A DNA stretch of 64,000 nucleotides from Actinokineospora enzanensis DSM 44649 (GTDB taxonomy: Bacteria; Actinomycetota; Actinomycetes; Mycobacteriales; Pseudonocardiaceae): the NCBI RefSeq assembly GCF_000374445.1, contig NZ_KB894404.1:186001-250000 (forward strand), given 5' to 3'. Shown here piece after piece: positions 34,744-53,612 of the stretch (within the stretch, counting starts at the first letter, position 1; each line of letters opens with the position of its first letter). A program made the position numbers and the translations under genes. Under the pieces are notes generated by a model that was not told where the DNA came from, made no database searches, and saw only the letters and a program-made list of their open reading frames with translations.

Positions 34744-35970
34744 GTGCGCGAGCGCGTCGAGGACCTGTTGCGTTCGTTGGGGCCGCGGGTTCTCGGCGTG
34801 CTTGTGCGGCATCATGGGCATTTCGATGTCTGTGAGGACGCCGTGCAGGAGGCGTTGCTCGCCGCTGCCACGCATTGGCCGCGGGATGGGGTGCCGGACA
34901 ATCCGACCGGGTGGTTGGTCACGGCGGCCGGGCGGCGGCTCACCGATCACTGGCGGTCGGAGAACGCGCGGCGGCGGCGGGAGGATGTGGTCGCCGCGCA
35001 GGCGGAGTTGTTGGCGCCCGCGCCGGATGTGCAGCGGCCGGGGGATAGTGATGACACGCTGGAGTTGCTCTTCCTGTGCTGCCATCCCGACCTGACGGCG
35101 GCCTCCCGGATCGCCCTGACCCTGCGTGCGGTGGGTGGGTTGACGACGGCCGAGATCGCGGCCGCGTTTCTGGTGCCCGAGGCGACGATGGCGCAGCGGA
35201 TCAGTCGGGCGAAGTTGCGGTTGCGGGGGGCAGCGTTTCCCCGGGACGCGGGGCCGGATCGGTTGGCTGCGGTGTTGCATGTGCTGTATCTGATCTTCAC
35301 CGAGGGGCACACCGCCACCGCGGGCGCCGATCTGCGTCGGGCCGATCTCACCGCGGAGGCCATTCGGTTGACTCGGGCGGTGCATCGGCTTCGGCCGTCC
35401 GATGGGGAGATCACCGGGCTGCTCGCGCTGATGTTGCTGACCGATGCACGCCGGGAGACCCGGGTGACGGCCGAGGGTGAGCTGGTGCCGTTGGCCGAGC
35501 AGGATCGCGCTCGCTGGGACCGTGCCGCCATCGCCGAGGGGGTCGCGTTGGTGACCGAGACGTTGACGACCGCGTCGCTGGGGCCGTACCAGGTGCAGTC
35601 CGCGATCGCTGCCATCCACGCGGAGGCGCTGACCGACGTGGACACCGACTGGGCCCAGATCCTGGTGTTCTATGACATTCTTGCTCGTATCGCCCCGAAC
35701 CCGATGGTCTCGTTGAACCGGGCGGTCGCCGTGGCCAAGGTCGCCGGGCCGCGTGCCGGGCTGGCTGAACTGTCCACTTTGGCCGAGGACAGGCGGCTGC
35801 GCGACCACCACCGGCTGGCCGCGGTCCGCGCGCATTTCCTGGAGCTGGCGGAGGATTCCGAGGCGGCGGTGGCGGAATACCGGCGGGCGGCCCGGTTGAC
35901 GCTCAGCCTGACCGAACGTCGTTACCTGGAGTCCCGCGCGGATCGGCTCGCTCGCGAGGCGGCTTCCTGA
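34744..35970 (+). CDS. ECF42-type RNA polymerase sigma factor
   Basis: A 408-residue sigma factor. Region 2 lies at residues about 10-85 (HHGHFDVCEDAVQEALLAA) and region 4 at about 110-165 (LTLRAVGGLTTAEIAAAFLVPEATMAQRISRAKLRLR). The remaining 220 residues form the helical TPR-like extension typical of group ECF42, which has no classical membrane anti-sigma factor and seems to regulate itself through that extension. Start is GTG immediately after the DGPF gene. A perfect hairpin follows. The trigger is unknown. Confidence 0.9.
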   Translation: MRERVEDLLRSLGPRVLGVLVRHHGHFDVCEDAVQEALLAAATHWPRDGVPDNPTGWLVTAAGRRLTDHWRSENARRRREDVVAAQAELLAPAPDVQRPGDSDDTLELLFLCCHPDLTAASRIALTLRAVGGLTTAEIAAAFLVPEATMAQRISRAKLRLRGAAFPRDAGPDRLAAVLHVLYLIFTEGHTATAGADLRRADLTAEAIRLTRAVHRLRPSDGEITGLLALMLLTDARRETRVTAEGELVPLAEQDRARWDRAAIAEGVALVTETLTTASLGPYQVQSAIAAIHAEALTDVDTDWAQILVFYDILARIAPNPMVSLNRAVAVAKVAGPRAGLAELSTLAEDRRLRDHHRLAAVRAHFLELAEDSEAAVAEYRRAARLTLSLTERRYLESRADRLAREAAS

Positions 35971-37742: not shown

Positions 37743-38951
37743 TCAGCCGGAGCCGGGCGCGGCCGACCAGGGTTTGTGGACGGCACCGGTCTGCCGCGGC
37801 GGCTCGGGTTCGGCGGTCGGGTCGGCGGTGGGCTCGGGGATCGGGACCGCGATCGTGGCCGTCATGTGCGCGGCCACTGCGGCCACCTCGCCCGAGCTGC
37901 CGCCGGGAACGCGGTCCAGGACTCGGCGGCCCAGCGCGAACAGCAGGTTCGTCACCAGGACCGCGGGCGCGATCACCGCCACCGCGCCGGGGAAGTCCGG
38001 TTCCAGCAGCAGTGCCAGCACGATCGCGGTCAGGCCGTTCTGCTGTCCCAGGGCCAGGCACCAGCGGTCGTAGCGGGGGAGATGACGCGACAGCGCCACC
38101 CCCATGACCATCTGGGCGGCGAACGCGGCCCCGCCCAGCGCGAGGCCCCGCAGCAGATCGGGCCACGAATGGGTGGTGACCGTGCCACCCAGGACCACAC
38201 CCAGCGCCGCGCCCGCCAAGAGCAGGGCGGCGGCCAGGGTCCGGTCCACCACCCAGTCCAGTGTGCGGAATGGACGGAAGAACAGGCCGCACGCCGCCAC
38301 GCCCAGCATCAGGCCGTATCGCACCGACACGACCGCGAACCCGGCCACCAGCAGCACCGCCACCACCGCGCCCACCACCCGGACCACGCCGGTGATGTGC
38401 TTCGACAGGAGGCGGGCGAGCCACCACAGCCCGGCTGCAACCAGGACGAACGCGCCGTTGAAGGCCAGGCCCTGCCAGAAGTCGGCGATGCCGTCGGAGG
38501 CCTCGCCGCCCAACGCGAACGCCGAGAGATACACGGTCAGCAGCACCGTGACCGGGTCGTCGAAGGCGGCCCAGGCGGACAGGATGGCCCGCGCCGAGTC
38601 CGACATCCGCCTGCTCAGCGTCGCTCCGACGGACAGCGGGTCGATCTGGGCGACCGCGACGCCCAGCACCAGGCTGATCGGCCGCGGGTGGATCAGGTAC
38701 ATGACCGCCGAGATCAGCGCCGTCTTGGCGAGCACGCCGACGGTGATGGCCAGCACCACCGTCCGCAGGTTCTCCCGCAGCTCGGACAGCTCGATGCCGC
38801 GCGTGCTGCCGTAGAGGCCGACGGCCAGCAGGGCGGTGATCGCCAGGTGGTAGGCGGGCGCGGTGTGTGCCTGCCAGCCCGCCAGCGCCGCGACCGCCCA
38901 GGCCACCAGGGTGACCGCGAGCGCGATCAGCGGTAGTCGGCTCGTGCCCAC
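37743..38951 (-). CDS. Cation/proton antiporter (CPA type)
   Basis: A 402-residue membrane protein with about eleven or twelve helices. The ion-binding aspartates of the family are suggested by AVAQIDPLSVGATLSRR and SAWAAFDDPVTVLLTVYLSA, and ALGQQNGLTAIVLALLLEPDF lies in a later conserved helix. It should exchange Na+ or K+ for protons. The last 35 residues are a proline-rich cytoplasmic tail (PIPEPTADPTAEPEPPRQTG). Start GTG with GGAG upstream. Confidence 0.82.
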   Translation of the reverse strand: MGTSRLPLIALAVTLVAWAVAALAGWQAHTAPAYHLAITALLAVGLYGSTRGIELSELRENLRTVVLAITVGVLAKTALISAVMYLIHPRPISLVLGVAVAQIDPLSVGATLSRRMSDSARAILSAWAAFDDPVTVLLTVYLSAFALGGEASDGIADFWQGLAFNGAFVLVAAGLWWLARLLSKHITGVVRVVGAVVAVLLVAGFAVVSVRYGLMLGVAACGLFFRPFRTLDWVVDRTLAAALLLAGAALGVVLGGTVTTHSWPDLLRGLALGGAAFAAQMVMGVALSRHLPRYDRWCLALGQQNGLTAIVLALLLEPDFPGAVAVIAPAVLVTNLLFALGRRVLDRVPGGSSGEVAAVAAHMTATIAVPIPEPTADPTAEPEPPRQTGAVHKPWSAAPGSG

Positions 38952-39057
38952 CGTGGCTCCCCGAGTCGGTGCGGTTCCGTACAGGATATCGCCGGGGGTT
39001 TCACGACTGTTGCCTCCGGGACACGGGGTATTCCCGGTCGGGCCGGGAAGACAGCAC

Positions 39058-39996
39058 TCATGAAGGTAGTTCGTCGGCGAGCCGGGCGAGTCGTGCGTCG
39101 GCCGCCGACACCTCGCTCTGGTTGAGCGTGACGCCGGTCAGGTAGTCGCCGACGCCGAGCCGGTAGTAGTAGACCGCGCCCTGTTCGACGTCGAGCACGA
39201 CGCGGCGCAGGTGGCCCGCGACGGTGGCCCGGACCAGGCGGCCGACCTGGCCCACGGTGGCGAACATGGCCTCGGCGAACTCGGCGTAGAAGGCCCGGCG
39301 CCTGCCCGCGTCGATGACCTTCAGGTACTGCCGCATGGTCGGCAGGTCGAAGCAGTCGTGGCCCTCGGTGTCCCGGCCCTGCCGGACCCTGGCGACCAGG
39401 TGCAGGTCGCCGTGCCGGACCGACTCGGCCAGGCCGGACTGGGGCGGCAGGCTGGGCGGCGCGGCCCAGCCGCCCGGATTCTGGTCCGGCAGCCCGAGCC
39501 GGTCGCGCAGACCGCGCACCAGGGTGGTGATCTCGCGGTCGACCCGGTTCACCGCCGCGTGCTCGGTGAGCGGGTCGGTGTGCGCGGCGGCGTCGTCGAG
39601 GAAGGCGAAGGCGACCACGTACTGGCCGGGCACGATCTGGTAGCAGAAGATCGCGCCGTGCTCGGCGTGCAGCACCACCCGGATGAGCCTGCCGGTGCCC
39701 ATCTCGGCCAGCCGGGCCTCCTGGGTGTCGGCGAAGATCGACACCAGCCGGGCGGCGCTCGCGCAGTTGGCGCGCAGCCGGTCCAGGCCCTCGGCGGCGG
39801 CCGGGACGTCCGGCAGCGCGGTGTCGAAGTCGTCCGCGTGGTAGTCCGCCACGCCGCCGCTGATCAGCGTGATCACCTGGACCAGGCGCGCGGCCACCAG
39901 CTCGCCGCACAGCTCCCACTCCGGCGGTTCCGCCTCCGCAGCCGGGTCCGGGGCCTGCCGCGGCTCATCCCCGGTCCAGGTCGCTCCAGTGCTCAC
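39058..39996 (-). CDS. Protein with duplicated roadblock-like domain, linked to FxsT
   Basis: A 312-residue cytoplasmic protein without recognised function. It contains two diverged copies of one alpha/beta unit: copy 1 around residues 105-140 (LIRVVLHAEHGAIFCYQIVPG) and copy 2 around 255-290 (LRRVVLDVEQGAVYYYRLGVG). The pattern of helix followed by strands resembles roadblock/LC7 proteins, which bind small GTPases, but this is a fold-level guess. It starts ten bases after the stop of the giant FxsT-like gene with GGAG six bases ahead of the GTG, so it belongs to the same operon. Confidence 0.55.
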   Translation of the reverse strand: MSTGATWTGDEPRQAPDPAAEAEPPEWELCGELVAARLVQVITLISGGVADYHADDFDTALPDVPAAAEGLDRLRANCASAARLVSIFADTQEARLAEMGTGRLIRVVLHAEHGAIFCYQIVPGQYVVAFAFLDDAAAHTDPLTEHAAVNRVDREITTLVRGLRDRLGLPDQNPGGWAAPPSLPPQSGLAESVRHGDLHLVARVRQGRDTEGHDCFDLPTMRQYLKVIDAGRRRAFYAEFAEAMFATVGQVGRLVRATVAGHLRRVVLDVEQGAVYYYRLGVGDYLTGVTLNQSEVSAADARLARLADELPS

Positions 39997-40006
39997 CGCA
40001 GACTCC

Positions 40007-43000
40007 TTATCCCAGCTCGACGCAGACCCAGGACCAGCACCGCTCCCCGACGGGCCGGTCGAACTGCCGGACGTTGTGCTCGGCCGCCGCGGCGGTCGGG
40101 TGGCTCGCGCCGAGGAACTCCAGCGCGAGGTCTCGGGCGGCGCGCGCGGCGGCGCCGTCCTCGGCGGTGGTGCCGGTGCGCAGCGCGGCCAGGTTCACCG
40201 CCGCGGCCAGCGCCCACGGGTGCAGCTCGTCCAGGCCGTCGCACAGCTGCCGGTGGCCGAGCTGTCCGATGTGGACGGCCTCGTCGCGCAGCCCGACCGC
40301 GTGCTGGAACACCGCCAGGTTCACCCGGGTGATCGCGGTGAACGGGTGCGTGTCGCCGAACTGCGGCAGCTCGGTGTGCGCGCGCAGGGCGACCTCGCCC
40401 AGCGTCACCGCCTCCGGGGCCAGGTCGGCGGCGAACAGGTCGACCGAGTGCGCGATCCGGCCGACGAACACCGGGCCGCTGTCGGCGACGAAGTGCCGGT
40501 GCACCCGGCGCAGCAGGTCCGCGCCCGCGGCCACGATCGCCTCCGGGCGGCGGGCGCCCATCCGGCGCTCCACCGACAGCTTGAACCGGCGCGCCAGCAG
40601 CGCCTCCTGGGCGTCCGGGTGCTCGCTGAGGGTGCGCAGCACGCCGTCGAGGTGCCGTAGCGCCTCCCGGTGCCTGCCCAGCTCGCTGAGCCTGCCCGCG
40701 AGCACCCGGCGGGACTGCAGGGTGAAGTTGTGTGCCTCGCCCAGCACCCGGACCCGGCGTGGGTAGCTCGCCAGCTCCAGGTCGAGCGCCTCCTGGGTGC
40801 GGCCCACCAGCCAGCGGGACATGCCCAGGTTGAACGCGACCTTCAGCGTCTCCGGGTGGTCGTGGCCGAAGGTGGTGCGGTAGCCGCGCCAGGTGGCCTC
40901 GTCCTCGGCCAGCGCCTCGTCGTAGCGGCCGACCGAGCGCAGGTCGCCGCCGAAGCGGCGGGCCGTGCTCAGCGTGCGCGGGTGGGTGTTGCCCAGCGCG
41001 CGCCGGTGGTGCGCGAGCAGCACCTGGTCGATCTCCAGCGCCTCGAACCGGCGCGACAGCTCCCGGCACAGGTCGGCGCGCACGCCGTTGAGCCTGCACA
41101 GCAACGGGTCGTGCGCGCCGAACGCGCGGGTCCACGCGGCGGCCACCGGGTCGGCGAACGCCAGCGCCTCGGCGGCGATCTCCAGGCTGTGCGTCAGGTA
41201 CAGGTGCGTGACCTGGTCGACCAGCCACCGGCGCACCGCCCACGCGCGGGAGCTCGGTGCGGTCGGGTCGCCAAGGCCGACGTCGTGGCCGAGGTCGACC
41301 GCCGCCACCTCGCACGGCACCAGGTGCCTCGCCAGCTCGGTGGACTCCGGGGTGAGCACGTCCAGGTCGCTCACCCGGGTGACGGCGAAGCGGGCCAGCG
41401 CGTACAGCACGTGCGCCCGCGCGCGGGCCAACTCCTCCGGCTCGGTGGCCGCGCGCAGCGCCCGTTGGGTGACCCGGTGCACGCGCAGCACCGCAGCGCC
41501 GTCCCGGTCGATCTCGAACAGCCCGAACCGCACGCCCGCCCACAGCACGCGCTCGATCTCGGCCTCGTCGGCCGCCAGCGGTCCGCCCGCCGGGCCCGCG
41601 AACGCGGCCAGCTCGTCCAGGAAACCCTGGCTGCGCACCAGCCGCAGGCTGATCCCGTCCGGCGCCAGGAACACGCACATCCGGGCGAGCGCCACGGTCA
41701 GCCGCCCGACGTGCGCGCCGAACTCGCCGTGCGCGCCGGGCAGCCAGTGCCTGCCGCTCAGCGTGGTGATCGTCAGCCGGACCATCCGCTCCAGCGGGTC
41801 GCGGCCGCGCAGCTCCGGCGCGGCCAGCCCGGCGCGCAGGTCCTTCGCGGCGCGCTGCACCGACTCGGCGGGTGCCAGGCTGCGCTGGTTGCCCCGCCAG
41901 GCGGCGCGCAGCCAGGCCGCGGCCAGGGTCAGCGCGACCGGCAGGTGGCCCAGCTCGGCGGCGATGTCGCGGGCCTCCTCGGCGCCCAGGTCGCGCACGC
42001 CCGCGACCGGGTGGCCGAGCAGGTCGGCCGCGTCGTCCTCGGCCAGTGGGCCCATCGACAGCACGGTGCGCACCGCGGCCCGGTCGCCCGGTGTCCGGTT
42101 TCCCGTTGCCCGGTCTCCTGTGGCCCGATCTCCCACTGTGCGCTCGGTCGTTGGCCGGTCGCCGGGGGGTGTGTCCGGTGTGGTGGGTCCGCCGGGGCCC
42201 GGCCAGGCGCCCGCGGTGATGATCACGTCGCCCGCGCCGCGCGCGGGCAGCAGGTCGCGCACCGACTCCTCGGTGGCGTCGTCGTAGATCAGCAGCCAGC
42301 GGTCCGGCGCGCCCGCGGACCGCCTGGCCAGGTGGGTGAGCACCGCCTCGGCGGGCTCGGCGCTGGTCAGGTGCAGGGTCGCGGCCAGCGCGGCCAGCCG
42401 GGCGCGCACCGCAGGCCGGTCGCCCGCCGGGATCCACCAGATCAGGTCGTAGGCGGACTCGAAGCGTTCGCAGTAGGCGCGGACCGCCTCGCTCTTGCCG
42501 ACCCCGGGCGCGCCGACCAGGACCACCGTGCGGCCCGCCGGGTCCGGCGCGGCGGTCAGCGGGCTGAGCAGGTCGCGGACGCGTTCCAGCAGGTCGTCGC
42601 GGCCGACGAAGCGGCTGCTCGGCCGCGGTCGGTCGCCGGCGTCCACCGCGCGCGGCTCGCTGTCGAACGCGGCAGCCGCGCCCAGCCCGGTGGTGTCCTG
42701 GGCCGGGTCGCCGTCGAAGACCCAGGCGGCCTCGAACAGCGCGCGGCGGGCGTCGGTGCCCGCGCCGGGCGGCTGGATCGGCAGGGTGACCGCGGTGGTG
42801 ACGGCCGGGTGCGTGTGCTCCTCGCCGGACCGCACGCCGACGATCCGCACGTGTGTGGGCAGCGCACGCAGCGCCGCGTCGGCCGGGGATCCCGCCAGCG
42901 CCGGGGTGAGCACGGCGATCACCGTGCGGTCGCCGGGATCCACGCCCACGTCGGTCAACCGGCGCGCCACGCACCCGGCGGTGCGGAGCTGTTCGGCGAT

Positions 43001-43951
43001 CCAGTCCGCGCGCAGGCGGTCGGCGGGGGCGTAGGCGAGCCAGATCGTGTCGGTCGGCTCGGCCAGCTTCAGCGCCACCAGGTAGCGCTCGCGCACGATC
43101 CGCGGCAGCGGCGGGAACTCGGTGATCGCGCCGCCGGTCATCGCGGTGCAGATCTGCTCGTAGGCGCGGACGAGGTCGTTGTCGTGGCCGGAGTCGTCCA
43201 GCAACAGCGCCAGCGCGCCGAAGCGGCCCTGCTCCGGCCGGTACGGGGTCTCGACGATCTGTACCGGGGCGGCGCCGTCGAACAGGTCGCTGAACGCGCG
43301 GCGCACCAGCGGTTCGGCGCCCGTGCCCGCCGGACCGCCCAGTCCGGCGGGCACCAGCACCAGGGCGGGTGGCGCGGGGGCGGCGGTGAGCGCGCGGGCG
43401 ATCTCGTCGGCCGGGCCGATGCCGTCGGTGAGGAAGCTGAGCACGGCCACGTCGCACAGGTCGGCCACGGCCGCGAGGTCGAGCCCGGCCGCGAGCGGGA
43501 GGTCGAGCAGCACGTGGTCGTAGCCCGCGGCGGCGGCCGCCTGCCCGAGCGCGGCGAGGTGTTCGAGGTCGACCGCGGTGTCCGCGGGACCGAAGTCCTC
43601 GTCGCCGACGACGTCCACCACCCCGGCCGCGGACGGTACCCGGTAGCGGGACATCCGCGCGGTCCACGGGCGGGCGTCGCGGGCGGTCGGGCGGCTCGCC
43701 GCGCCCTGGAGCGCGTCCTCGACGGCCTCGGGCACCGGCACCGCGGCCGCGGTGCGGAAACGCCGGAGGTAGTGGTGCGCGGGCGGGGGTTCCGAACCGA
43801 GGTCGACCACCAGCGGCGCGCGACCCGCGGCGGCGAGCAGGCAGGCCGTGTTGGCGACCAGGCGGGTGCGGCCGGTGCCCCGGGTCGGGGCCAGGAAGGC
43901 CACCAGCACCGCGCCGCCGTCCGCCCCGGGCGGACCGAATCCTGCAGCCAC
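40007..43951 (-). CDS. fxsT: FxSxx-COOH system protein FxsT: ParA-like, TIR-like, NB-ARC, TPR
   Basis: A 1314-residue multidomain protein of the FxSxx-COOH peptide system. Residues 13-250 resemble a ParA/MinD-type P-loop fold with a decayed Walker A (APTRGTGRTR). Residues about 303-375 look TIR-like (IWLAYAPADRLRADWIAEQL), without the EW catalytic glutamate, and recall the separate TIR-like FxsC protein of such loci. Residues about 447-720 are an NB-ARC STAND ATPase with FVGRDDLLERV and Walker A GAPGVGKS (480-487). The rest is about a dozen TPRs (for example LGNTHPRTLSTARRFGGDL). A low-complexity linker of GDRATGDRATGN type interrupts the ATPase. Partner of the precursor gene 62 bases upstream. 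Confidence 0.85.
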   Translation of the reverse strand: MAAGFGPPGADGGAVLVAFLAPTRGTGRTRLVANTACLLAAAGRAPLVVDLGSEPPPAHHYLRRFRTAAAVPVPEAVEDALQGAASRPTARDARPWTARMSRYRVPSAAGVVDVVGDEDFGPADTAVDLEHLAALGQAAAAAGYDHVLLDLPLAAGLDLAAVADLCDVAVLSFLTDGIGPADEIARALTAAPAPPALVLVPAGLGGPAGTGAEPLVRRAFSDLFDGAAPVQIVETPYRPEQGRFGALALLLDDSGHDNDLVRAYEQICTAMTGGAITEFPPLPRIVRERYLVALKLAEPTDTIWLAYAPADRLRADWIAEQLRTAGCVARRLTDVGVDPGDRTVIAVLTPALAGSPADAALRALPTHVRIVGVRSGEEHTHPAVTTAVTLPIQPPGAGTDARRALFEAAWVFDGDPAQDTTGLGAAAAFDSEPRAVDAGDRPRPSSRFVGRDDLLERVRDLLSPLTAAPDPAGRTVVLVGAPGVGKSEAVRAYCERFESAYDLIWWIPAGDRPAVRARLAALAATLHLTSAEPAEAVLTHLARRSAGAPDRWLLIYDDATEESVRDLLPARGAGDVIITAGAWPGPGGPTTPDTPPGDRPTTERTVGDRATGDRATGNRTPGDRAAVRTVLSMGPLAEDDAADLLGHPVAGVRDLGAEEARDIAAELGHLPVALTLAAAWLRAAWRGNQRSLAPAESVQRAAKDLRAGLAAPELRGRDPLERMVRLTITTLSGRHWLPGAHGEFGAHVGRLTVALARMCVFLAPDGISLRLVRSQGFLDELAAFAGPAGGPLAADEAEIERVLWAGVRFGLFEIDRDGAAVLRVHRVTQRALRAATEPEELARARAHVLYALARFAVTRVSDLDVLTPESTELARHLVPCEVAAVDLGHDVGLGDPTAPSSRAWAVRRWLVDQVTHLYLTHSLEIAAEALAFADPVAAAWTRAFGAHDPLLCRLNGVRADLCRELSRRFEALEIDQVLLAHHRRALGNTHPRTLSTARRFGGDLRSVGRYDEALAEDEATWRGYRTTFGHDHPETLKVAFNLGMSRWLVGRTQEALDLELASYPRRVRVLGEAHNFTLQSRRVLAGRLSELGRHREALRHLDGVLRTLSEHPDAQEALLARRFKLSVERRMGARRPEAIVAAGADLLRRVHRHFVADSGPVFVGRIAHSVDLFAADLAPEAVTLGEVALRAHTELPQFGDTHPFTAITRVNLAVFQHAVGLRDEAVHIGQLGHRQLCDGLDELHPWALAAAVNLAALRTGTTAEDGAAARAARDLALEFLGASHPTAAAAEHNVRQFDRPVGERCWSWVCVELG

Positions 43952-44013
43952 GTTTGTCGCCCTATCCGGCAGGCGGTCGGAAATGCGGTACCGGGACCGT
44001 CGGCCACTCGATT

Positions 44014-44214
44014 CTAGATAACGGATTGGTACTCTTGGTTCGGTGTCGGCTTTCTGTCCTCTTCGTCAAGGATCTGTCTGACCGTGTCCAGCAACGCCGA
44101 GTTCGGCAGCCGGTCCAGATCCGCCAGCGCGGCGATCTCCGGCAGATCCGAGCACAGCACGGCGATCTCCGGTCGCGACGGATCCGGGGTCCCCGGGTGT
44201 CCGGTCATCGACAC
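44014..44214 (-). CDS. fxsA: FxSxx-COOH precursor peptide FxsA
   Basis: A 66-residue peptide. The leader has an amphipathic segment DLPEIAALADLDRLPNSALL and a helix TVRQILDEED; the tail is EYQSVI, with the C-terminal motif aromatic-x-Ser-x-x. The family norm is FxSxx; here tyrosine replaces phenylalanine. In such systems the radical SAM maturase FxsB is classed as forming a three-residue cyclophane on the aromatic residue and the residue two later, so Tyr62 to Ser64 is the expected site. Starts at GTG 44214 or ATG 44208 behind AAGGG. Divergent from fxsB, upstream of fxsT. Confidence 0.8.
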   Translation of the reverse strand: MSMTGHPGTPDPSRPEIAVLCSDLPEIAALADLDRLPNSALLDTVRQILDEEDRKPTPNQEYQSVI

Positions 44215-44463
44215 TGCTCACCCTTCTGTCGGTGATCGCCATCGTAGCGGCCCCGGGCAGGGCGGGGACGCGGTATCCGCGCGGCGACCGACGACCGCGC
44301 GACGCTCACCCTGTTGGCCCAACACATAATCCGTGCGGGGGACGTGTCCTCGACAAACGCCCGCGGACTCGCGAGAGTTGTGCTGCGCGGTGGCTCGGAC
44401 TTCTGGGGCGGACTTCGAGAACCGGCGAAACGGTGTTCGTCCAACGGGAGGCGGTGTCGGCCA

Positions 44464-45600
44464 ATGGCCGGACGCACGGTCGCGTTCACGCAATTCGTGC
44501 TCAAGCTGCACAGCCGATGCGATCTGGCCTGCCGCTATTGCTACGTCTACACCAAGAACGACCAGAGTTGGCGCGACCGGCCGCGGGTGATGACCCGCGA
44601 GACGTTCGAGCAGGCGGCCGGGCGGATCGCCGAGCACGCCCGGCAGCACCGGCTGCCGGAGGTCGAGGTCGTGCTGCACGGCGGCGAGCCGCTGCTGGTC
44701 GGCGCCGAGCGGATCGGCCGCTGCGCCCGGCTGCTGCGCGCGCGGGTGGAACCGGTCGCCCGGCTGCGGTTACGCGTGCAGACCAACGGGACGTTGCTCG
44801 ACCGTTCGATGCTGGAGGTGTTCGACAGGCACGGCGTGCGGGTCGGCGTGAGCCTCGACGGCACGGCCGCCGCGCACGACCGGCACCGCAGGCACGCCGA
44901 CGGCACGGGCAGCCACGCCGCCACCGCCCGCGCGCTCGGGCTGCTCGCCGACGAGTACCGGCACCTGTTCGGCGGTCTGCTGTGCACGATCGACCTGGCC
45001 AACGACCCGGTCGAGACCTACGAGGCGCTGCTGTCCCACCGCCCGCCCGCGGTGGATTTCCTGCTGCCGCACGGCACCTGGAGCGCACCGCCGCCCGGCC
45101 GCGCGCCGGGCGCGGCGGAGACCCCGTACGCGGACTGGCTGATCGCGGTATACGAACGGTGGCGCGCTGCGCCGGTGCCGGAGACCCGGGTGCGGGTGTT
45201 CGAGCAGGTCCTGCGGGTGCTGCTGGGCGGCGAGTCGCGGATCGAGGGCCTGGGGATGGCGCCCAGCGGCGTGGTGGTGATCCAGACCGACGGCGCGATC
45301 GAGCGCTCCGACATGCTCAGCGTCACCTACCAGGGCGCGGCACGGACGGGGCTGTCGGTGTCCCGGCACAGCTTCACCGAGGTGTTGACGCTGCCGGAGT
45401 TCGCCTACGGGCGGGAGCTTGCCGAGACGTGCCTGTCGTGCGGGGTGCTGCGCCAGTGCGGCGGAGGTTTCCTGCCGCACCGTTACCGCGCGGGCCACGG
45501 GTTCGTCAACCCGTCGGTGTACTGCCCGGACCTGCGGCAGCTGATCGACCACTGTGGACGGACGCTGCACGCCGCGCTCACCGCGCCGCCTGCCGGGTGA
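44464..45600 (+). CDS. fxsB: FxsB-family radical SAM/SPASM peptide maturase
   Basis: A 378-residue radical SAM enzyme. The [4Fe-4S] site is CDLACRYC (Cys19, Cys23, Cys26) within FTQFVLKLHSRCDLACRYCYVY, the hallmark opening of FxsB proteins; HGGEPLL is the next conserved motif. Auxiliary-cluster cysteines of a SPASM domain appear near the end (ETCLSCGVLRQCGGGF, YCPDL, HCG). It should install a cyclophane crosslink in the divergently encoded precursor. Many homologues are fused to the HExxH module; here that module is a separate gene overlapping by GTGA. ATG at 44464 preferred, GGGAGG 12 bases upstream; the frame is open to 44314. Confidence 0.88.
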   Translation: MAGRTVAFTQFVLKLHSRCDLACRYCYVYTKNDQSWRDRPRVMTRETFEQAAGRIAEHARQHRLPEVEVVLHGGEPLLVGAERIGRCARLLRARVEPVARLRLRVQTNGTLLDRSMLEVFDRHGVRVGVSLDGTAAAHDRHRRHADGTGSHAATARALGLLADEYRHLFGGLLCTIDLANDPVETYEALLSHRPPAVDFLLPHGTWSAPPPGRAPGAAETPYADWLIAVYERWRAAPVPETRVRVFEQVLRVLLGGESRIEGLGMAPSGVVVIQTDGAIERSDMLSVTYQGAARTGLSVSRHSFTEVLTLPEFAYGRELAETCLSCGVLRQCGGGFLPHRYRAGHGFVNPSVYCPDLRQLIDHCGRTLHAALTAPPAG

Positions 45601-46817
45601 GCCCGCACCGGTTGCCCGCGTCGGCGCTGCTCGCCATCGGGCGCGGCGCCGCCGACGTGCCGACCCTGCTGGCCGCCGCGCGCGGTCGGGTGAGCCGGAC
45701 ATGGTTGCTGCTCAAGGCGATCGTGGTACTCGCCGAGGAACGTTCACACCCGGGGGCTGCTGCCGCCGCCGATGCCTTGGCGGCCTTGCGGGGGCTGTCG
45801 GCGACGGAGGTGTTGCGGTATCCGGAGGTGTCGTCGTGGGCGTCGGCCACTGTGCGTCGGCTGATGGGACCCGACTGGGTGACCGCGCGGGTGGATCGGC
45901 TGGCCGTGTTGCCCGCTGTGGCCGCGGTGTCGGGCGGGACGGACGTCGAGGTGTCGGTGCGGGCGGATCCGGAGGTGCGGTTGCCCGGACTCGGCCGGTT
46001 CGTGCTGCCGTCCCCCGGGCAGACGACGATCGTGGTCAGGGCGGGTGTGGCCGGTGTCGCGGGTGCCGATTGGCGGCCGGTGACCAGGATCGGGCTGGAT
46101 GATCCGGTGTGGTCCGTGGCGTTGGACGATATGTCGGATGTGTCCGGACCGGATCATGGTCTCGGCGGGGTGCTGCCCGCGGAGTCCTGGGAGTCGGTGC
46201 TGCGGGCGGGTTGGTGGGTGCTCGACGATCACCCGGGGGTGGCGGACACGGTGGCCGCGTTGGTGCGCACGCTGGTTCCGTTGCCGCACAGCACATCCGG
46301 CCCGGTCAGCGCGGCGCTGACCACCGCGTTCGGCGCGATCGCCCTGGTGCGGCCCACGAGCGGTGTCGCGTTCGCGCTGACGCTCGCGCACGAGTCGCGG
46401 CATGTGGCGATCACGGCCGTGGCCGACCTGTTCCCGCTGTTCAAGGACGGGGGAGAGGCCGTGTTCTACGCGCCATGGCGGAGTGATCCACGTCCGGCTT
46501 TCGGTGTCCTGCACGGCATCCACGCGCATCTGGGCGTCGCCCGGTTCTGGGCCCGCCGGCTGGCCGTCGGCGCCGATCCGGCGATCGCCGAGATCGAACT
46601 GGCCCGCTGGCGCTCCGCGGCGAGCCTGGCCCTCGACGCGTTGACCAGCGCGGCAGAACCGACCGAGGCGGGTTCACTACTGCTGACCGGCATGGCGGAC
46701 GAGGCCGCCGAGTTGGCCGATATTCCTGTCTCCGCGACAGCACGCGCCGAGGCCGACACGCGCAACCACGCCCATCTGGCCAGATGGGAACACGCACATG
46801 GTCCGGCCCCGCGCTAG
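45597..46817 (+). CDS. HExxH-motif peptide-modification protein (FxsH module)
   Basis: A 406-residue protein matching the HExxH domain that accompanies FxsB maturases. The motif is HESRH at residues 265-269. The N-terminal 250 residues are beta-rich with no recognisable domain. Proteins of this type are annotated as putative peptide-modification enzymes; they could cleave the leader or hydroxylate/modify the product, and the family has also been compared to metal-dependent oxygenase folds. Start GTG overlaps the fxsB stop. Its stop codon shares the four bases CTAG with the stop of the convergent ATPase gene. Confidence 0.8.
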   Translation: MSPHRLPASALLAIGRGAADVPTLLAAARGRVSRTWLLLKAIVVLAEERSHPGAAAAADALAALRGLSATEVLRYPEVSSWASATVRRLMGPDWVTARVDRLAVLPAVAAVSGGTDVEVSVRADPEVRLPGLGRFVLPSPGQTTIVVRAGVAGVAGADWRPVTRIGLDDPVWSVALDDMSDVSGPDHGLGGVLPAESWESVLRAGWWVLDDHPGVADTVAALVRTLVPLPHSTSGPVSAALTTAFGAIALVRPTSGVAFALTLAHESRHVAITAVADLFPLFKDGGEAVFYAPWRSDPRPAFGVLHGIHAHLGVARFWARRLAVGADPAIAEIELARWRSAASLALDALTSAAEPTEAGSLLLTGMADEAAELADIPVSATARAEADTRNHAHLARWEHAHGPAPR

Positions 46818-49243
46818 CGGAATGCGCGTAGTACCTCATAACGGACGTTCTCGCCCAGGGACTCGGCTTTCTGACGCAGGTCGAGCATGCGGTCCGCCCA
46901 GGTGTCCCGGTCCGCGGGCGTGGTCTCGTCATGCGGCAGGGCCACCGCGACGTCGACCACGCTGTCCAGGGCGTTCGCCGGGATGCGGTCGAAGGCCTGG
47001 TCGTATTGCACGCACAGGGCTTCCAGGTCGTGCCGGTCCGCGGCGGGCAGCCGCTTGCCGGGCTCCCGGGAGCGGCGGCGGAACCAGTCGTCCACGGCCT
47101 GGCGGAACTGCCGGACCAGGTTGTCCAGCACCCCCGCCACGCCCAGACCGGACAACGCGGCCGCGCCCCGGCCGGTCAGCGCCCACAGCGGGCCGAACCG
47201 CTCCGGCTCGGACACCGTGTGCGGGTCGTCGAACACCCGCTCCACCACCTGCGGCGCCCCGCCGAACGTGGCCAGCGCGCCCAGCGTGTCCTCGAACAGC
47301 CGCTGCACCGCGCCGGGCAGCGCCGTGCCCGCGGGGGCGGTGTGGCCCGCGCGGATCGACGCCCGGCGGACCTCGTCCAAGCCGGTCTGCAGGCGGTGCA
47401 GCACGTTCTCGATCCGTGACTGCTGGTCCTGCATCCACGAGATCGCGCCCTGCTGGGCGTCGCGCACCGCCTCCGGCAGGCTGCCCAGGGCGCGGACCTG
47501 CTCGCGCAGCTCGGCCAGCACGTCGCCGCCCTGGCGCCGTTCCAGCCGCAGCCGCATGGCCTTGACCACGCCGAACAGGTCCTCGTCGAAGGTGTACGGG
47601 TGGTAGGTCAGCGGTTCGCGGCCGAACGCCTGGCTGAGCAGGGCCGCCGGGGCGCTGCGCGCGATGGCCTCGCCGACCACCAGCAGCAGCTCCACCTCGA
47701 CCCGCTCGCGCGCGGCCGCCGCGCGGATCGCCTCGGCGCGCGCGACCAGCCGCTCGACGTCGTCGTTGTCGGTGACGGCCTCGGTGAGCACCAGCCCGCA
47801 GCCCGCCTCGGGGGCCGCGTCCAGCCAGAAGTCGACCCTGGTCTCCCGGGTGGCGCTGAGGTGGTAGTCGGCGCTGTGGTGCCAGTCCTGGTCGTTGAGC
47901 ACCCGCCGGATCGCCCGCGCGACCTGGCCGCGCTTGTCCACGCCGAACACCTCGTGCGCGGTCGCGCGCACCTCGGCGGGGGTGATCTCGTGCTCGACGC
48001 CGTCCTGGGTGGCCCGCGCGAACAGCCGCCTGCAGTACAGGCCGACCCGGCGCGGGTTGCCGTCGGTCACGCCCACCACGGTGTCCAGGGCTTCCTCGGT
48101 GAACGGTGCCAGCCCGGCGCGGCCGACCCGCTCGTGGCAGCGCAGCGCGAACCGCACCGTCTCGGCCAGCCCGAACAGCGGCACCCGCACGGTCTCGGCT
48201 ATCCGCGGCCGGATCGGGCCGAGCTGGTCGAACGCCTCGTCCACGCCCGCCAGCACCAGCAGCGCGCCGGACCTGGCCGCGGTCTCCAACAGCGACTGCA
48301 GGCGGCCTGCGGACGCGCGGCCCGCCGACCGCCGGGGAGTCCGGGCGGCGGGTACGGGGGGCGGATCGGTCGGGTCGGTCGGGTCGGGTCGGGTGGTGTC
48401 GGCGGGTTCGATGTGGTCGGGCTTGATGTCGCGGTGGAGCCGGGCGAACAGGCGGTCGGCCTCGTCCACGGCGATCACCAGCGGTTGCCCGGCGTGGCCG
48501 TAGAGGGCGGTGAGCGTGCCGAACGCGCGGGTGGCCGCGTCCTCGTCGTCGATCTCGCCGGTGATGCCGCGCTCGCGCAGTGCCGGGTCGGGGGCTCCGC
48601 CGAGCAGCCAGTTCCAGGCCCGGTCGTGGAAGGCCGGGCGCAGCAGCAGGGTCAGCACGTGCGCGACCTCGGCGTGCCTGGTCGCCTGGAACAGCCGGTC
48701 CTGCATCTCGGCCAGCAGCCCGACCTCGGCGAACCCGAGCCCGCCCGCGACCGCGAGCGGGTCGAGGTCGGGGTTGTCCAGCAGCACGCGCACGTCCTCG
48801 CCGAGCTTGCCCGCGCCGTCCAGCTGACCCACCACCAGGGCGGTCAGCACCGAGCGGACGCGGCGCAGCAGCTCGTCCGCGCCCAGGGCCTGGACCAGCC
48901 GCGAGTAGAGGTCGCGGATCGTGGTGCCCGCGTCCACCTCCACGCAGGTGACGCTGTCCGGGTCGGCGTCCCGCCGCGCCCAGGCCAGGTTCGCCAGGTA
49001 GGCGAGCAGGTGCGTCTTTCCCGCGCCGTAGTCCCCGACGACCGCGACCACCCGGCCGGGGGCCCGGCCAGGGGCGACGGACTCGGACGACCGCCCGCGC
49101 ACCGACTCCAGGTAACCGGACAGCAGGGCCTTGATCGTCTCGGTCGCGGCGGTCTCGACCGTGACCAGGTCGGCGCCCTCCACCACGGTGGCGATCGCGG
49201 TGGGCGAGAACGGGTTGGGCGGCGGCTGCGCTCCGGCGACCAT
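46814..49243 (-). CDS. Large P-loop ATPase of an unknown three-gene system
   Basis: An 809-residue AAA+/STAND-like ATPase. Walker A is GDYGAGKTH (70-78); Walker B is VIAVDEADRLF; a second VLAGVDEAFDQL segment and FTEEALDTVVGVTDGNPRRVGLYCRRL resemble ORC/Cdc6-type sensor and lid regions. The middle holds a nuclease-like alpha/beta segment (VDFWLDAAPEAGCGLVLTEAVTD) without a clear catalytic set; the last 300 residues are helical with coiled coils (VLHRLQTGLDEVRRA). A proline/aspartate-rich linker interrupts the ATPase domain. AGGAGG lies eight bases before the ATG. Adjacent to, and probably co-translated with, the smaller NTPase. Function unknown. Confidence 0.75.
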   Translation of the reverse strand: MVAGAQPPPNPFSPTAIATVVEGADLVTVETAATETIKALLSGYLESVRGRSSESVAPGRAPGRVVAVVGDYGAGKTHLLAYLANLAWARRDADPDSVTCVEVDAGTTIRDLYSRLVQALGADELLRRVRSVLTALVVGQLDGAGKLGEDVRVLLDNPDLDPLAVAGGLGFAEVGLLAEMQDRLFQATRHAEVAHVLTLLLRPAFHDRAWNWLLGGAPDPALRERGITGEIDDEDAATRAFGTLTALYGHAGQPLVIAVDEADRLFARLHRDIKPDHIEPADTTRPDPTDPTDPPPVPAARTPRRSAGRASAGRLQSLLETAARSGALLVLAGVDEAFDQLGPIRPRIAETVRVPLFGLAETVRFALRCHERVGRAGLAPFTEEALDTVVGVTDGNPRRVGLYCRRLFARATQDGVEHEITPAEVRATAHEVFGVDKRGQVARAIRRVLNDQDWHHSADYHLSATRETRVDFWLDAAPEAGCGLVLTEAVTDNDDVERLVARAEAIRAAAARERVEVELLLVVGEAIARSAPAALLSQAFGREPLTYHPYTFDEDLFGVVKAMRLRLERRQGGDVLAELREQVRALGSLPEAVRDAQQGAISWMQDQQSRIENVLHRLQTGLDEVRRASIRAGHTAPAGTALPGAVQRLFEDTLGALATFGGAPQVVERVFDDPHTVSEPERFGPLWALTGRGAAALSGLGVAGVLDNLVRQFRQAVDDWFRRRSREPGKRLPAADRHDLEALCVQYDQAFDRIPANALDSVVDVAVALPHDETTPADRDTWADRMLDLRQKAESLGENVRYEVLRAFR

Positions 49244-49245
49244 CG

Positions 49246-50226
49246 TCACCACCTCCTGCCGGTGGCGCTCTGTCGGCGCAGCACCTCGAACATTGCCTCG
49301 AACAGCTCGACGTAGTCGACGGAGTCGCGATCCCGGAACCGGTTGGCCGGGTCGGTACGGCTCGCGTAGACCTGTTGCAACGTGCCCAGGAACATGCCCA
49401 TGCTCAGCTGGCGGACGAGCGGCGAGCTCTGCAACTGCGTCATGGCACCCTCGGCGATGTCGGGCCTGGCGGCGTCCGCCCCCGGCCAAGCGTGCACCAC
49501 CTTGTCGGTCTCATCGGCTTCCAGGTAGCGCAAACTCACCCGGACGGGAGGTCTCGGTCGCCCGTCCGGTGGCGGTGGGCCGTGTCCGGCCGACGAGTAT
49601 TCCAGGAAGGTGACCACCCCGGGGCTGGTTTGGGCACGGACGCGCTCCAGTTCCGGCATCGGCAGATCCGGTTGCAGCGCGGGCGGGATGATCAGGAAGT
49701 AGGGGCGGTTCTTGTCCGTGCGGTGCAATGTGCCCAACCGGCCGTAGGCGGCGGTGAGGTCGGTGCCGGGGTCGGACAGGTCCCGCGTCCAGCCCTCCAT
49801 CTGGAACTCGTGCAGCCGCACGGTGATCAGCTGCGCGAGGTGCGCGAGGCGGTTGTCCACGGTCGGCGGCGCGGAGCCGTCGGACGGGCCAAGGTACGGG
49901 TTCTCGGAGAAGTCGAACACGTGCACGCGCTCGTCGCCGCCGAGCTTTTCCCGCAACCAACCGGCACATCGATGCAGCAGGGTGGATTTCCCGCACCGCT
50001 CCGGTCCGTCGACCACGACCACCAACCCGGCCGCGCACCGGCTCTCCGCATTTGCCAGCGCGGCCTTGAACCGGTCGAAACCGTCGGCGTGGCCGCCGAA
50101 ATCGCTGTACGGGTAGGGGCCGAGGTCCCGTTCCGCCGGATCCCACGGCCGGGGCGGGCGCGCGGGATCGAATTCGCGTCCGGGCAGCACGTAGGGGTTC
50201 CGCACCGGAGGCATGAGACCGGTCAC
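49246..50226 (-). CDS. P-loop NTPase, middle gene of the three-gene system
   Basis: A 326-residue protein with Walker A VDGPERCGKSTLL near residue 75, and VHVFDFSENPY as a possible following strand. The later half (YFLIIPPALQPDLPMPELERVRAQTSPGVVTFLEYSS) is alpha/beta, and a terminal helical part ends QSATGRRW. No Walker B is certain. It begins GTG in a GTGA overlap with the upstream lipoprotein gene, and stops three bases before the large ATPase start, so all three are one transcript. Four residues in, an ATG at 50214 is an alternative start. Confidence 0.7.
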   Translation of the reverse strand: MTGLMPPVRNPYVLPGREFDPARPPRPWDPAERDLGPYPYSDFGGHADGFDRFKAALANAESRCAAGLVVVVDGPERCGKSTLLHRCAGWLREKLGGDERVHVFDFSENPYLGPSDGSAPPTVDNRLAHLAQLITVRLHEFQMEGWTRDLSDPGTDLTAAYGRLGTLHRTDKNRPYFLIIPPALQPDLPMPELERVRAQTSPGVVTFLEYSSAGHGPPPPDGRPRPPVRVSLRYLEADETDKVVHAWPGADAARPDIAEGAMTQLQSSPLVRQLSMGMFLGTLQQVYASRTDPANRFRDRDSVDYVELFEAMFEVLRRQSATGRRW

Positions 50227-51023
50227 GACGCGACCTCGGCCGTGTTCGCGCGCAATTCGCCACGCCGGGCCCACGGGCGTTCCACGGCGGCGGCGAGCGC
50301 GGCCACATCCCGTTCCAGCTCGACCAGGGCCGTGCCGACGCGGTCGGTCTCGGCGCGGGTCCAGTCGGTGAACACCCGCGGCCCCAACGGGCCCGCGAGC
50401 CGGGTGAGCAGGTCGTTCGCCGTGGAGTGCGGGTGCAGGCGGGCGACCAGGCGCAGCTCGGTGGACAGTTCCGCGTGCCGTTGCAGTACCGCCGCGTCCG
50501 ACGGGTACCGGTTGCCGCGGCCGGAGTCGCCGACGAAGAGCCGGGCGGCGACGGCGAACTGGGTCGTCGCCGTGCGAAGGACCTGGCCCTGCCTGCGGGC
50601 GCGGACCGCGTACTCGCGCAGCGCGGCCGAGCCGTAGCCGATCACCGCGCCTACCAGCACGTTCAGCGCGGCCAGGAGCGTGGTGGTCCAGTCGTCGGGG
50701 GAGGTGTCGGTGGGGCGGATCGCGGCGCAGGCGCGGTCGAAGTCGTCGGGGTGGCGCTCGCGCCAGGTGGACATGTCGACCGAGGCGCCGTTGTCGAGCA
50801 CATGGGTGGGGTTCCCCGGATCGGGTTGGGCGACGCGCAGGGTGACGGCCGACCGGGCCAGGTCGCCGAGCTGGGCGGGGGACAGGCAGGCGACCAGGTC
50901 GCGGTCCGCGTCCGCGTCCGCGTCCGGGGCGGCGGCGCACGCGGTGAGCAGCAGTGGGGCGGTGACCAGCACGATGGCCAGGACGCCGGACGGCGACAGC
51001 CCGCCGGACCCCGTGAGCCCCAT
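50223..51023 (-). CDS. Lipoprotein with internal membrane helix, first gene of three-gene system
   Basis: A 266-residue protein. The signal peptide ends in a lipobox LLTAC (Cys29), followed by an aspartate/alanine repeat (DADADADRD) and a 95-residue outer domain, then one membrane helix around residues 115-133 (TTLLAALNVLVGAVIGYGSAAL) and a helical cytoplasmic part of about 130 residues. If lipidated, it would link the outside to the cytoplasmic NTPases encoded next. Not recognised as a family. ATG at 51023 is used (AAGGGTGAGAG upstream). Confidence 0.65.
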   Translation of the reverse strand: MGLTGSGGLSPSGVLAIVLVTAPLLLTACAAAPDADADADRDLVACLSPAQLGDLARSAVTLRVAQPDPGNPTHVLDNGASVDMSTWRERHPDDFDRACAAIRPTDTSPDDWTTTLLAALNVLVGAVIGYGSAALREYAVRARRQGQVLRTATTQFAVAARLFVGDSGRGNRYPSDAAVLQRHAELSTELRLVARLHPHSTANDLLTRLAGPLGPRVFTDWTRAETDRVGTALVELERDVAALAAAVERPWARRGELRANTAEVAS

Positions 51024-51326: not shown

Positions 51327-52466
51327 ATGGTGGATTTCTTCACCGAATGGCACCGGAGAATCGACGTCAACAGCACGCTCGCGGTCGCGGCCTACGAACG
51401 CGAGATACCGGATTTCCGGCGGGTGGCGACCAATCCGGGAGTCCGCGCGGGCATGCTGGACATCGCGCGGTACCTGCGACAGCGCACGATCGCGCTGGTA
51501 CCCGAGGAACGCCCGTTCACCGGCGCGGACCTGGATTTCCTCGCCGGGGTCGGGTGGGAGCGGGGAAGCAAGGCGGTCTCGTTGGCCGCGCAACGCCAAG
51601 TGCTGCAACTGCACACGGCGCTGGTGATGCGCGAGGTGCACGAGATCGCGCGACCCGCCGATGTGGACCCGGTGATGAGCGCGCTGCGCTGGCTGCCACG
51701 GCTCGGCGCCCGCTCGCACGTCGCCTACACCACCGGCTACCTGCACGGCCTGGCCGACGCGCTGCCCGCGGTGGACCGGGTGGGCATGCTGGTGCGGGCA
51801 CTGCTCGCGGACGACCCGATGGCCGTGGACATGGCCGACGCGCTGGCCATGCGCCCGTCGGTGCGGTGCGTGGTCGTGGCGGTCCGGGTGCCGCGGGCCG
51901 GGGACTCGCCGCGCGCGGAGATGATCGCGGATCTGCTGGGGGCGCACTGGGTTCCGGTCGCGTGGACCGCTCCGGACGAGGTCGTCGCGGTGGTCGCGGA
52001 CGAGGAACGGGCGATGCAGGTGGCGCACGACCTCGGCGACCGGCTCGACCTGCCGTGCGCGGCCGGGGCCGCTCGCGGTGAGGTCGGCGCGTTGACGGCC
52101 GCGGTGGCCGAGGCCCGTGAGGTGTGCCGGGCCGCGCCGGTCCTCGCCCGACCGCCGGTGGCGCACTTCCGGGCGGACCTGTTCGCCGAGGTCGCGGCCG
52201 CGCGGGTCGCCCCGGTGGATGCCTGGCTGCGTGAGGTGGCGGCCCGGCTCGCGGCGGGGCCGGACCTCGTGGTCACAGTGGACACCTTCTACCGCAACGA
52301 CATGTCCCGGTTGCGCACCGCCGCCGTGTTGGGTGTGCACCCGCGCACGTTGGACTATCGGCTGCGCCGCGTCCACGAACTCACCGACCTGGAGCCGACT
52401 TCGGTGCGCGGTGTGCGCATCCTCAGCACTGCGGCGGCCAGATCCTTATCCGGTGCGTGGACATGA
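51327..52466 (+). CDS. PucR-like helix-turn-helix regulator, copy 1
   Basis: A 379-residue regulator. The C-terminal 60 residues carry the PucR/CdaR-type HTH (TFYRNDMSRLRTAAVLGVHPRTLDYRLRRVHELT). The N-terminal 170 residues are helical, RsbR/GGDEF-like sensing regions of such regulators, and the middle resembles the degenerate cyclase part. It overlaps the second copy by ATGA, and the two share the same layout, indicating tandem duplication. The pair precedes a BenE transporter, so control of aromatic-acid or purine uptake is plausible. Confidence 0.85.
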   Translation: MVDFFTEWHRRIDVNSTLAVAAYEREIPDFRRVATNPGVRAGMLDIARYLRQRTIALVPEERPFTGADLDFLAGVGWERGSKAVSLAAQRQVLQLHTALVMREVHEIARPADVDPVMSALRWLPRLGARSHVAYTTGYLHGLADALPAVDRVGMLVRALLADDPMAVDMADALAMRPSVRCVVVAVRVPRAGDSPRAEMIADLLGAHWVPVAWTAPDEVVAVVADEERAMQVAHDLGDRLDLPCAAGAARGEVGALTAAVAEAREVCRAAPVLARPPVAHFRADLFAEVAAARVAPVDAWLREVAARLAAGPDLVVTVDTFYRNDMSRLRTAAVLGVHPRTLDYRLRRVHELTDLEPTSVRGVRILSTAAARSLSGAWT

Positions 52467-53575: not shown

Positions 53576-53612
53576 TCGAGGTCGGCGGGCCCGTGGGTAC
53601 AGTCCCCGGACT

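Follow-up and report, generated by a model that had tools for sequence, protein, structure and literature searches.

The 64,000-nucleotide stretch of Actinokineospora enzanensis DSM 44649 analyzed here (contig NZ_KB894404.1, positions 186,001 to 250,000 of the forward strand; hereafter the window) carries a locus in which an FxsA-like peptide precursor, the radical SAM maturase FxsB and a HExxH enzyme are encoded next to the large ATPase FxsT, a Roadblock/LC7 protein, a Na+/H+-exchanger-like membrane protein and two further ATPases that we name ATP1 and ATP2 (Table 1). A first-pass annotation of this DNA had described 39058-46817 as an FxSxx-COOH peptide locus, which assigns it to the right family. 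Its coordinates and lengths all hold in the sequence and the open reading frames (ORFs), as does its account of FxsB and HExxH as separate genes joined by GTGA, where the GTG of the HExxH gene overlaps the TGA of FxsB, in an operon that diverges from the precursor operon. The genes within these bounds belong to the unit, but its extent was drawn too short: the unit covers at least 37743-50214, perhaps up to 51023, and the Roadblock, exchanger and ATPase genes co-inherited with this branch of FxsB had been missed. In place of the HExxH gene, the regional gene caller wrongly called an antisense frame.

Table 1. Genes and elements of the locus, with positions in the window; aa, amino acids
Feature	Position	Strand	Basis
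Na+/H+-exchanger-like membrane protein (PF00999), 402 aa, last in precursor operon	37743-38951	-	Pfam E = 2.3e-14
Tandem Roadblock/LC7 protein, 312 aa (P0005)	39058-39996	-	Structure prediction
FxsT, 1314 aa: MinD/Soj-like N-terminus, TIR-like stretch (by eye), AP/NB-ARC-type ATPase, TPR	40007-43951	-	NF040586
FxsA-like precursor, 66 aa	44014-44214	-	Mainly position and orientation
YQSVI core, with the proposed crosslink partners Tyr (i) and Ser (i+2)	44017-44031	-	Homologous tails aligned
Divergent intergenic region, 249 bp	44215-44463	.	Sequence
FxsB, cyclophane-forming radical SAM/SPASM maturase, 378 aa	44464-45600	+	TIGR04269
aKG-HExxH-type peptide hydroxylase, separate gene, divergent sequence, 406 aa	45597-46817	+	TIGR04267
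ATP1, large AAA ATPase, 809 aa, weakly BrxD-like	46814-49243	-	AAA_22 E = 2.3e-9
ATP2, second P-loop ATPase, 322 aa	49246-50214	-	Homologues adjoin ATP1
MEM, putative membrane protein or lipoprotein, 266 aa, optional member	50223-51023	-	Homologues at some related loci; no Pfam match

The two enzymes of the forward operon belong to known families. FxsB scores 472.7 bits against TIGR04269 (cut-off 370), a model that names FxsB cyclophane-forming, and matches ChlB (9gm3) at E = 2.8e-78. It contains the cysteines of the radical SAM CxxxCxxC motif (C19, C23 and C26) and of the SPASM domain (C323, C326, C332 and C354), and keeps 91 of the 94 columns conserved at 90% or more, with three departures. 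The HExxH protein scores 136.5 bits against TIGR04267 (cut-off 40), with the motif HESRH at residues 265-269, and matches PDB 22nu (E = 2.3e-28) and ChlH 8s5f (E = 1.6e-4). It retains H265, E266, H269 and the PWRxDPRP sequence. FxsT reaches 487.1 bits against NF040586 (cut-off 300) and has Pfam AAA_16 and TPR matches. A model of its first 280 residues, with a predicted local distance difference test score (pLDDT) of 82.5, matches the Soj/MinD fold (best E 5.1e-7), with the Walker-A Lys replaced (GRT, not GKT). Residues ~300-410 look TIR-like by eye, from sequence and secondary structure, an assignment unconfirmed among the 50 structure matches listed. FxsT is an NLR-like ATPase, which is unusual for a biosynthetic gene.

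To place these genes in context, we gathered 124 distinct FxsB loci, after removal of three duplicates, from 16 genus- to order-level relatives, from 390 genomes of the family (58 with FxsB at E ≤ 1e-60) and from a named genome collection (54 loci); this sample leans towards relatives of the window FxsB. In a wider sample of the phylum, FxsB occurs in 11 of 396 genomes, giving eight further places outside the fetched set. The first-pass annotation had presented the split maturase as a variant, but the split is the ordinary state: the HExxH partner is a separate adjacent gene at 98 of the 124 loci, fused to FxsB at 8, elsewhere in the stretch at 2 and not found at 16. The 98 include two adjacent separate frames without a HExxH motif (L139 and L159). 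Three of the eight fused proteins (L096, L098 and L101) also have no HExxH motif, which fits the “inactivated hydroxylase extension” form of NCBIfam. Fusion may be commoner outside our sample; at three of the eight further places in the phylum, open frames reach 776-813 aa, a length that matches fused forms, and the largest network cluster in the accessible text of PMC12636437 consists of fused enzymes.

More interesting than either the Tyr tail or the split is the linked cassette. The Roadblock protein has no Pfam match and a single, insignificant NCBIfam match. Its AlphaFold2 model (pLDDT 88.1) shows the order α-β-β-α-β-β-β-α twice, and Foldseek matched it to Roadblock proteins, including MglB and S. 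avermitilis 3kye, with a probability of 1.00 and a best E of 7.8e-4. Homologues occur in 22 of 200 family genomes, all FxsB-bearing, and at 53 of the 124 FxsB loci, none of which is fused (50 split, 3 without HExxH). The exchanger, whose D104, D131 and D132 are conserved in 38 of 38 homologues, accompanies 39 of these 53 loci and none of the other 71. Across the 390 family genomes we found 39 copies (E ≤ 1e-30) in 38 genomes, all 38 of them among the 58 with FxsB, and 37 copies lie within 9 kb of FxsB, the exceptions being the copy in G189 and a second copy in G201. The exchanger stands beside HExxH in five Actinokineospora loci with HQS cores (L044, L045, L047, L051 and L052) and beside Roadblock elsewhere; it has thus changed place yet remained in the cluster.

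ATP1, which is weakly BrxD-like (PF10923, E = 1.7e-5) and converges on the HExxH gene in the window, follows the same pattern. With equal flanks and the window set apart, it occurs at 40 of 52 Roadblock loci, rising to 48 of 53 with extra flanks, compared with 0 of the 71 loci without Roadblock; the extra flanks cover 30 Roadblock loci, on the Roadblock/exchanger side, and none of the 71. In the stretches examined ATP1 was not found at L059, L070, L135, L147 and L149. Within the genus it is present in 13 of 16 genomes, exactly those bearing FxsB and each time within 12 kb of it, by a looser search; a strict whole-protein search (E ≤ 1e-60) recovered it in 1 of 16, that of the window, and ATP1 is ~30% identical between loci. 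Single-linkage clustering of neighbors put ATP1 in a 40-locus group mixed with antisense frames, and we used direct matches and a profile instead of that count. A homologue of ATP2 adjoins ATP1 in all 30 flanks fetched and at 35 of the 53 loci in all, many stretches ending before ATP2, and MEM has homologues in 12 of the 30 flanks and at 14 of the 53 loci. The ATP1/ATP2 pair faces the HExxH end in the window and the Roadblock/exchanger end at the other placed loci, that being the side on which flanks were fetched. The window exchanger is 60-63% identical to the exchangers of the HQS strains and ~50% to others, while identity to the best-scoring relatives reaches no more than 37% for the window HExxH protein, 35% for FxsT and 39% for the Roadblock protein. 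Such values suggest either faster evolution at the peptide end of the cassette than at its membrane end or a mosaic exchange of parts.

The precursor starts with GTG, seven bases downstream of an AGAAGG ribosome site, and ends in QEYQSVI before the stop codon; the first-pass annotation was right that the tail is YQSVI rather than FxSxx. We identify it as the precursor because its slot and orientation, between FxsT and a divergent FxsB, are those of its homologues: at related loci, a small gene with an aligned leader occupies this slot and ends in FQNxx, FQSxx, FQDxx, HQSSLSGG... or FQNIHGG.... A precursor divergent from FxsB and within 500 bp of it is found at 48 of 53 Roadblock loci, the window included, versus 4 of the 71 others. 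Using a profile that included the window, we assigned precursors at 103 of the 124 loci, with 13 cores set by hand, four pattern candidates dropped and loci with several precursors counted by the first. The ring position (i) is F at 89 loci, H at 8, Y at 5 and W at 1; position i+1 is Q at 40, E at 25, N at 12 and D at 9, with six other residues at the remainder; and position i+2 is S at 70, N at 23, A at 4, Q at 3, R at 2 and D at 1, never Gly. A separate leader-only profile, built without the window and without the last nine residues, found 73 ORFs, in 54 of which the fifth residue from the end is aromatic or His (F 48, Y 3, H 3). All 73 show [FYWH]x[SNDAQR] after the leader, although chance alone would readily satisfy so loose a pattern.

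Across the 102 rows of the FxsB tree, the aromatic state changes at least seven times, and Tyr appears at the ring position in three separate places. These are the window, the related loci L162 and L163, whose tails PYESGL and PYKAGL carry Ser and Ala, respectively, at i+2, and L134 and L140, with KYQRAME tails (Tyr-Gln-Arg cores), at which Roadblock and ATP1 are present and the HExxH gene and the exchanger were not found in the stretch examined. Tyr is therefore one of several natural swaps at the ring position, and the window is not unique. The first-pass annotation had taken Tyr-x-Ser as the likely crosslink site, a proposal that gains from homologous precursors carrying F, H, W and Y in the same slot. 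It had also held that homologous precursors without an aromatic-x-Ser end would speak against it, and this applies in part, as i+2 is a residue other than Ser in 33 of 103 cores. Repeated swaps among F, Y, H and W would be expected of a ring-forming aromatic rather than a fixed Phe and, together with the absence of Gly at i+2, agree with a bond that runs from a ring carbon to a beta carbon. A Tyr-Ser cyclophane on the window precursor is thus plausible.

Two further observations concern the cores and the enzyme. One locus, L046, has five tandem precursors within 800 bp upstream of FxsB, with cores FGS, FTS, FNS, WSS and FGN. We also considered, and rejected, Gly at FxsB position 53 as a determinant of the Tyr/His state: it is found in 7 of 14 non-Phe versus 4 of 88 Phe rows, but there are only four independent, supported pairs, and its seeming presence in 6 of 7 non-Phe groups came from ties within groups. 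Some other columns rank equal or higher in a naive comparison, mostly through residues of one clade.

Based on these data, we propose that FxsB would bind the leader of the 66-aa precursor and join the Tyr ring through a C-C bond to the beta carbon of the Ser two residues on, yielding a three-residue cyclophane (-2 Da) at the C terminus, after which one of the core residues may be hydroxylated by the separate aKG-HExxH enzyme. In its finished form, the peptide would act as a switch or signal of a chromosomal conflict or signaling cassette rather than as a stand-alone antibiotic, with FxsT as a sensor, the tandem Roadblock protein as a possible adaptor, the Na+/H+-exchanger-like protein as a putative membrane output and ATP1/ATP2 as a further module driven by nucleoside triphosphates. 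We consider the crosslink itself likely and infer that the product most likely serves an intracellular or cell-envelope system of this kind, and on balance we favor the whole explanation, by a modest degree of belief. A bolder version, to which we give rather little credence, is an undescribed NLR-like immune or stress system, in which the cyclophane-locked tail, its ring residue swapped among Phe, Tyr and His under diversifying selection, would license the MinD/TIR/AP-ATPase sensor to act through the Roadblock adaptor on the exchanger as effector.

Several findings weigh against a Tyr-Ser cyclophane serving as the signal of such a cassette. The precursor scores 18.8 bits (E = 0.0014) against TIGR04268, the FxSxx-COOH model, below the curated cut-off of 28, and its Y-Q-S-V-I tail departs from the F-x-S-x-x C terminus that the model calls for; the leader-only profile matches it weakly (E = 0.0053). 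Such a comparison with the FxsA family had been recommended by the first-pass annotation. The cores were partly assigned with patterns that demand an aromatic residue or His, 21 of the 124 loci have no assigned precursor, and a column-by-column comparison of the aligned FxsB rows tied no column to the Tyr/His state. At two positions the HExxH protein departs from its relatives: A271, after the HExxH motif, replaces a K present in 97 of 104, and H309, near the third His, replaces a Y present in 97 of 104. Identity to its best-scoring relatives is 34-37%, versus 49-53% for the A. iranica control, so that its substrate or activity appears to have changed and the enzyme may be altered or inactive; FxsB is less divergent (53-58% in the window versus 57-61% in the control, for best-scoring relatives). 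Among PADLOC models, none rose above noise for the cassette except weak matches to viperin (a generic radical SAM match), BrxD and PDC-S01. Finally, the exchanger is missing at 14 of the 53 Roadblock loci, and linkage is no proof of function.

The last of these points also suits the alternative that survives best, in which FxsB makes the Tyr-Ser ring and the peptide is released and exported as a small natural product, the neighboring genes being present through hitch-hiking synteny, regulation or self-protection. The core enzymes, as textbook members of their families, would be at home in such a locus. However, the exchanger relocates and still stays in the cluster, with nearly all copies by FxsB, no peptide exporter or separate protease was recognized among the proteins scanned, and an NLR-like ATPase such as FxsT is atypical of a biosynthetic gene; we consider this alternative possible but unlikely. 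Alternatively, this strain might leave the Tyr tail uncrosslinked, with the locus in drift, its precursor weak and its HExxH enzyme degenerate, or with the enzyme acting on another peptide. The shortfall of the precursor against its family model and the residue changes and low identity of the HExxH protein point that way, as does the GC content at third codon positions of the HExxH gene, 0.85 versus 0.94-0.96 in the FxsB, FxsT and Roadblock genes, from which a history different from that of its neighbors is possible. Yet all reading frames are open, FxsB is almost fully conserved, and Tyr has an independent origin in at least two other lineages, which drift would not favor, making this case improbable. 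That the HExxH protein is a metallopeptidase releasing the peptide, as proposed in 2020 (PMC7159879, accessible text), and not a hydroxylase, seems very improbable: a relative, PflC, does hydrolyze a truncated substrate, but hydroxylase activity was demonstrated for a fused relative (both from the available part of PMC12636437, the latter citing Morishita 2024), the best matches of the window protein are aKG-HExxH proteins (TIGR04267, ChlH 8s5f and 22nu), and PWRxDPRP is kept.

The locus bears on a wider question, since the bioactivities of triceptides are described as not elucidated in the accessible text of a 2025 paper (PMC12257519). The fixed association of the peptide gene with genes for an NLR-like ATPase, a Roadblock adaptor and a single dedicated ion exchanger points to a concrete, testable place for their role, inside the producing cell and at its membrane, and the F, Y, H and W variants that occur naturally at the ring position make a ready panel for enzyme selectivity. 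The genes around the unit are ordinary neighbors, at 34744-35970 and 51327-54830: a DUF6596 sigma factor, and two PucR-type regulators followed by a BenE benzoate transporter. Farther on, the 671-aa product of 55956-57971 has polyglycine-hydrolase-like (BTRD1) repeats and weakly matches a metallopeptidase.

We compared the locus with known systems, beginning with MscA/MscB, whose InterPro entry is the FxsB family. Like the window FxsB, MscB is a radical SAM/SPASM maturase; its core is Phe-x-Ser, joined by a C4(Phe)-Cβ(Ser) bond (Nguyen 2020, as cited in the accessible part of PMC11002830), whereas the window has Tyr in place of Phe and a larger gene context. The same text lists maturases of the same chemistry as acting on Tyr-Asp (YxdB), Tyr/His-Arg (YhhB), His-Ala (HaaB) and Phe-Ser (MscB), and describes YxdB and YhhB as crosslinking through Tyr C3 to Asp or Arg (Sugiyama 2022, cited there). 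These two are from a maturase subfamily other than that of the window FxsB, which scores 346.7 bits on the YhhB model against a cut-off of 445. ChlB and ChlH are a cyclophane synthase and an aKG-HExxH hydroxylase, matched by the window FxsB and HExxH proteins, respectively; ChlBH is a fusion according to the accessible text of PMC12636437, whereas the window has two genes and a HExxH protein without the conserved K and Y.

For the ATPases, the BrxC/BrxD proteins of BREX offer a partial likeness: ATP1 is weakly BrxD-like, yet scores 24.6 bits on NF033438 (cut-off 350), and no BREX gene set was present among the proteins scanned. No vWA or MoxR domain, expected of the VMAP-ternary systems of eLife 2020, appeared among the window proteins scanned with Pfam, a subset of its genes. 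Literature searches of openly available main texts returned no relevant paper on this combination of genes, and the main text of PMC7159879, taken without its supplements, contains none of the words roadblock, antiporter, exchanger and BREX. As far as searchable text goes, the components of the cassette beyond the 2020 description, namely the Roadblock protein, the exchanger and the ATPase pair, are not in print. A further counterpart is in that eLife 2020 paper, the accessible text of which predicts standalone FxSxx-peptide systems of actinobacteria that, like the window, comprise the peptide, the radical SAM enzyme, a HExxH protein and an AP-ATPase with an inactive MinD/ParA-like domain, the last of these represented here by FxsT with its Soj/MinD fold and GRT sequence. 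We read the window cassette as an extended variant of these predicted standalone peptide-processing conflict systems.

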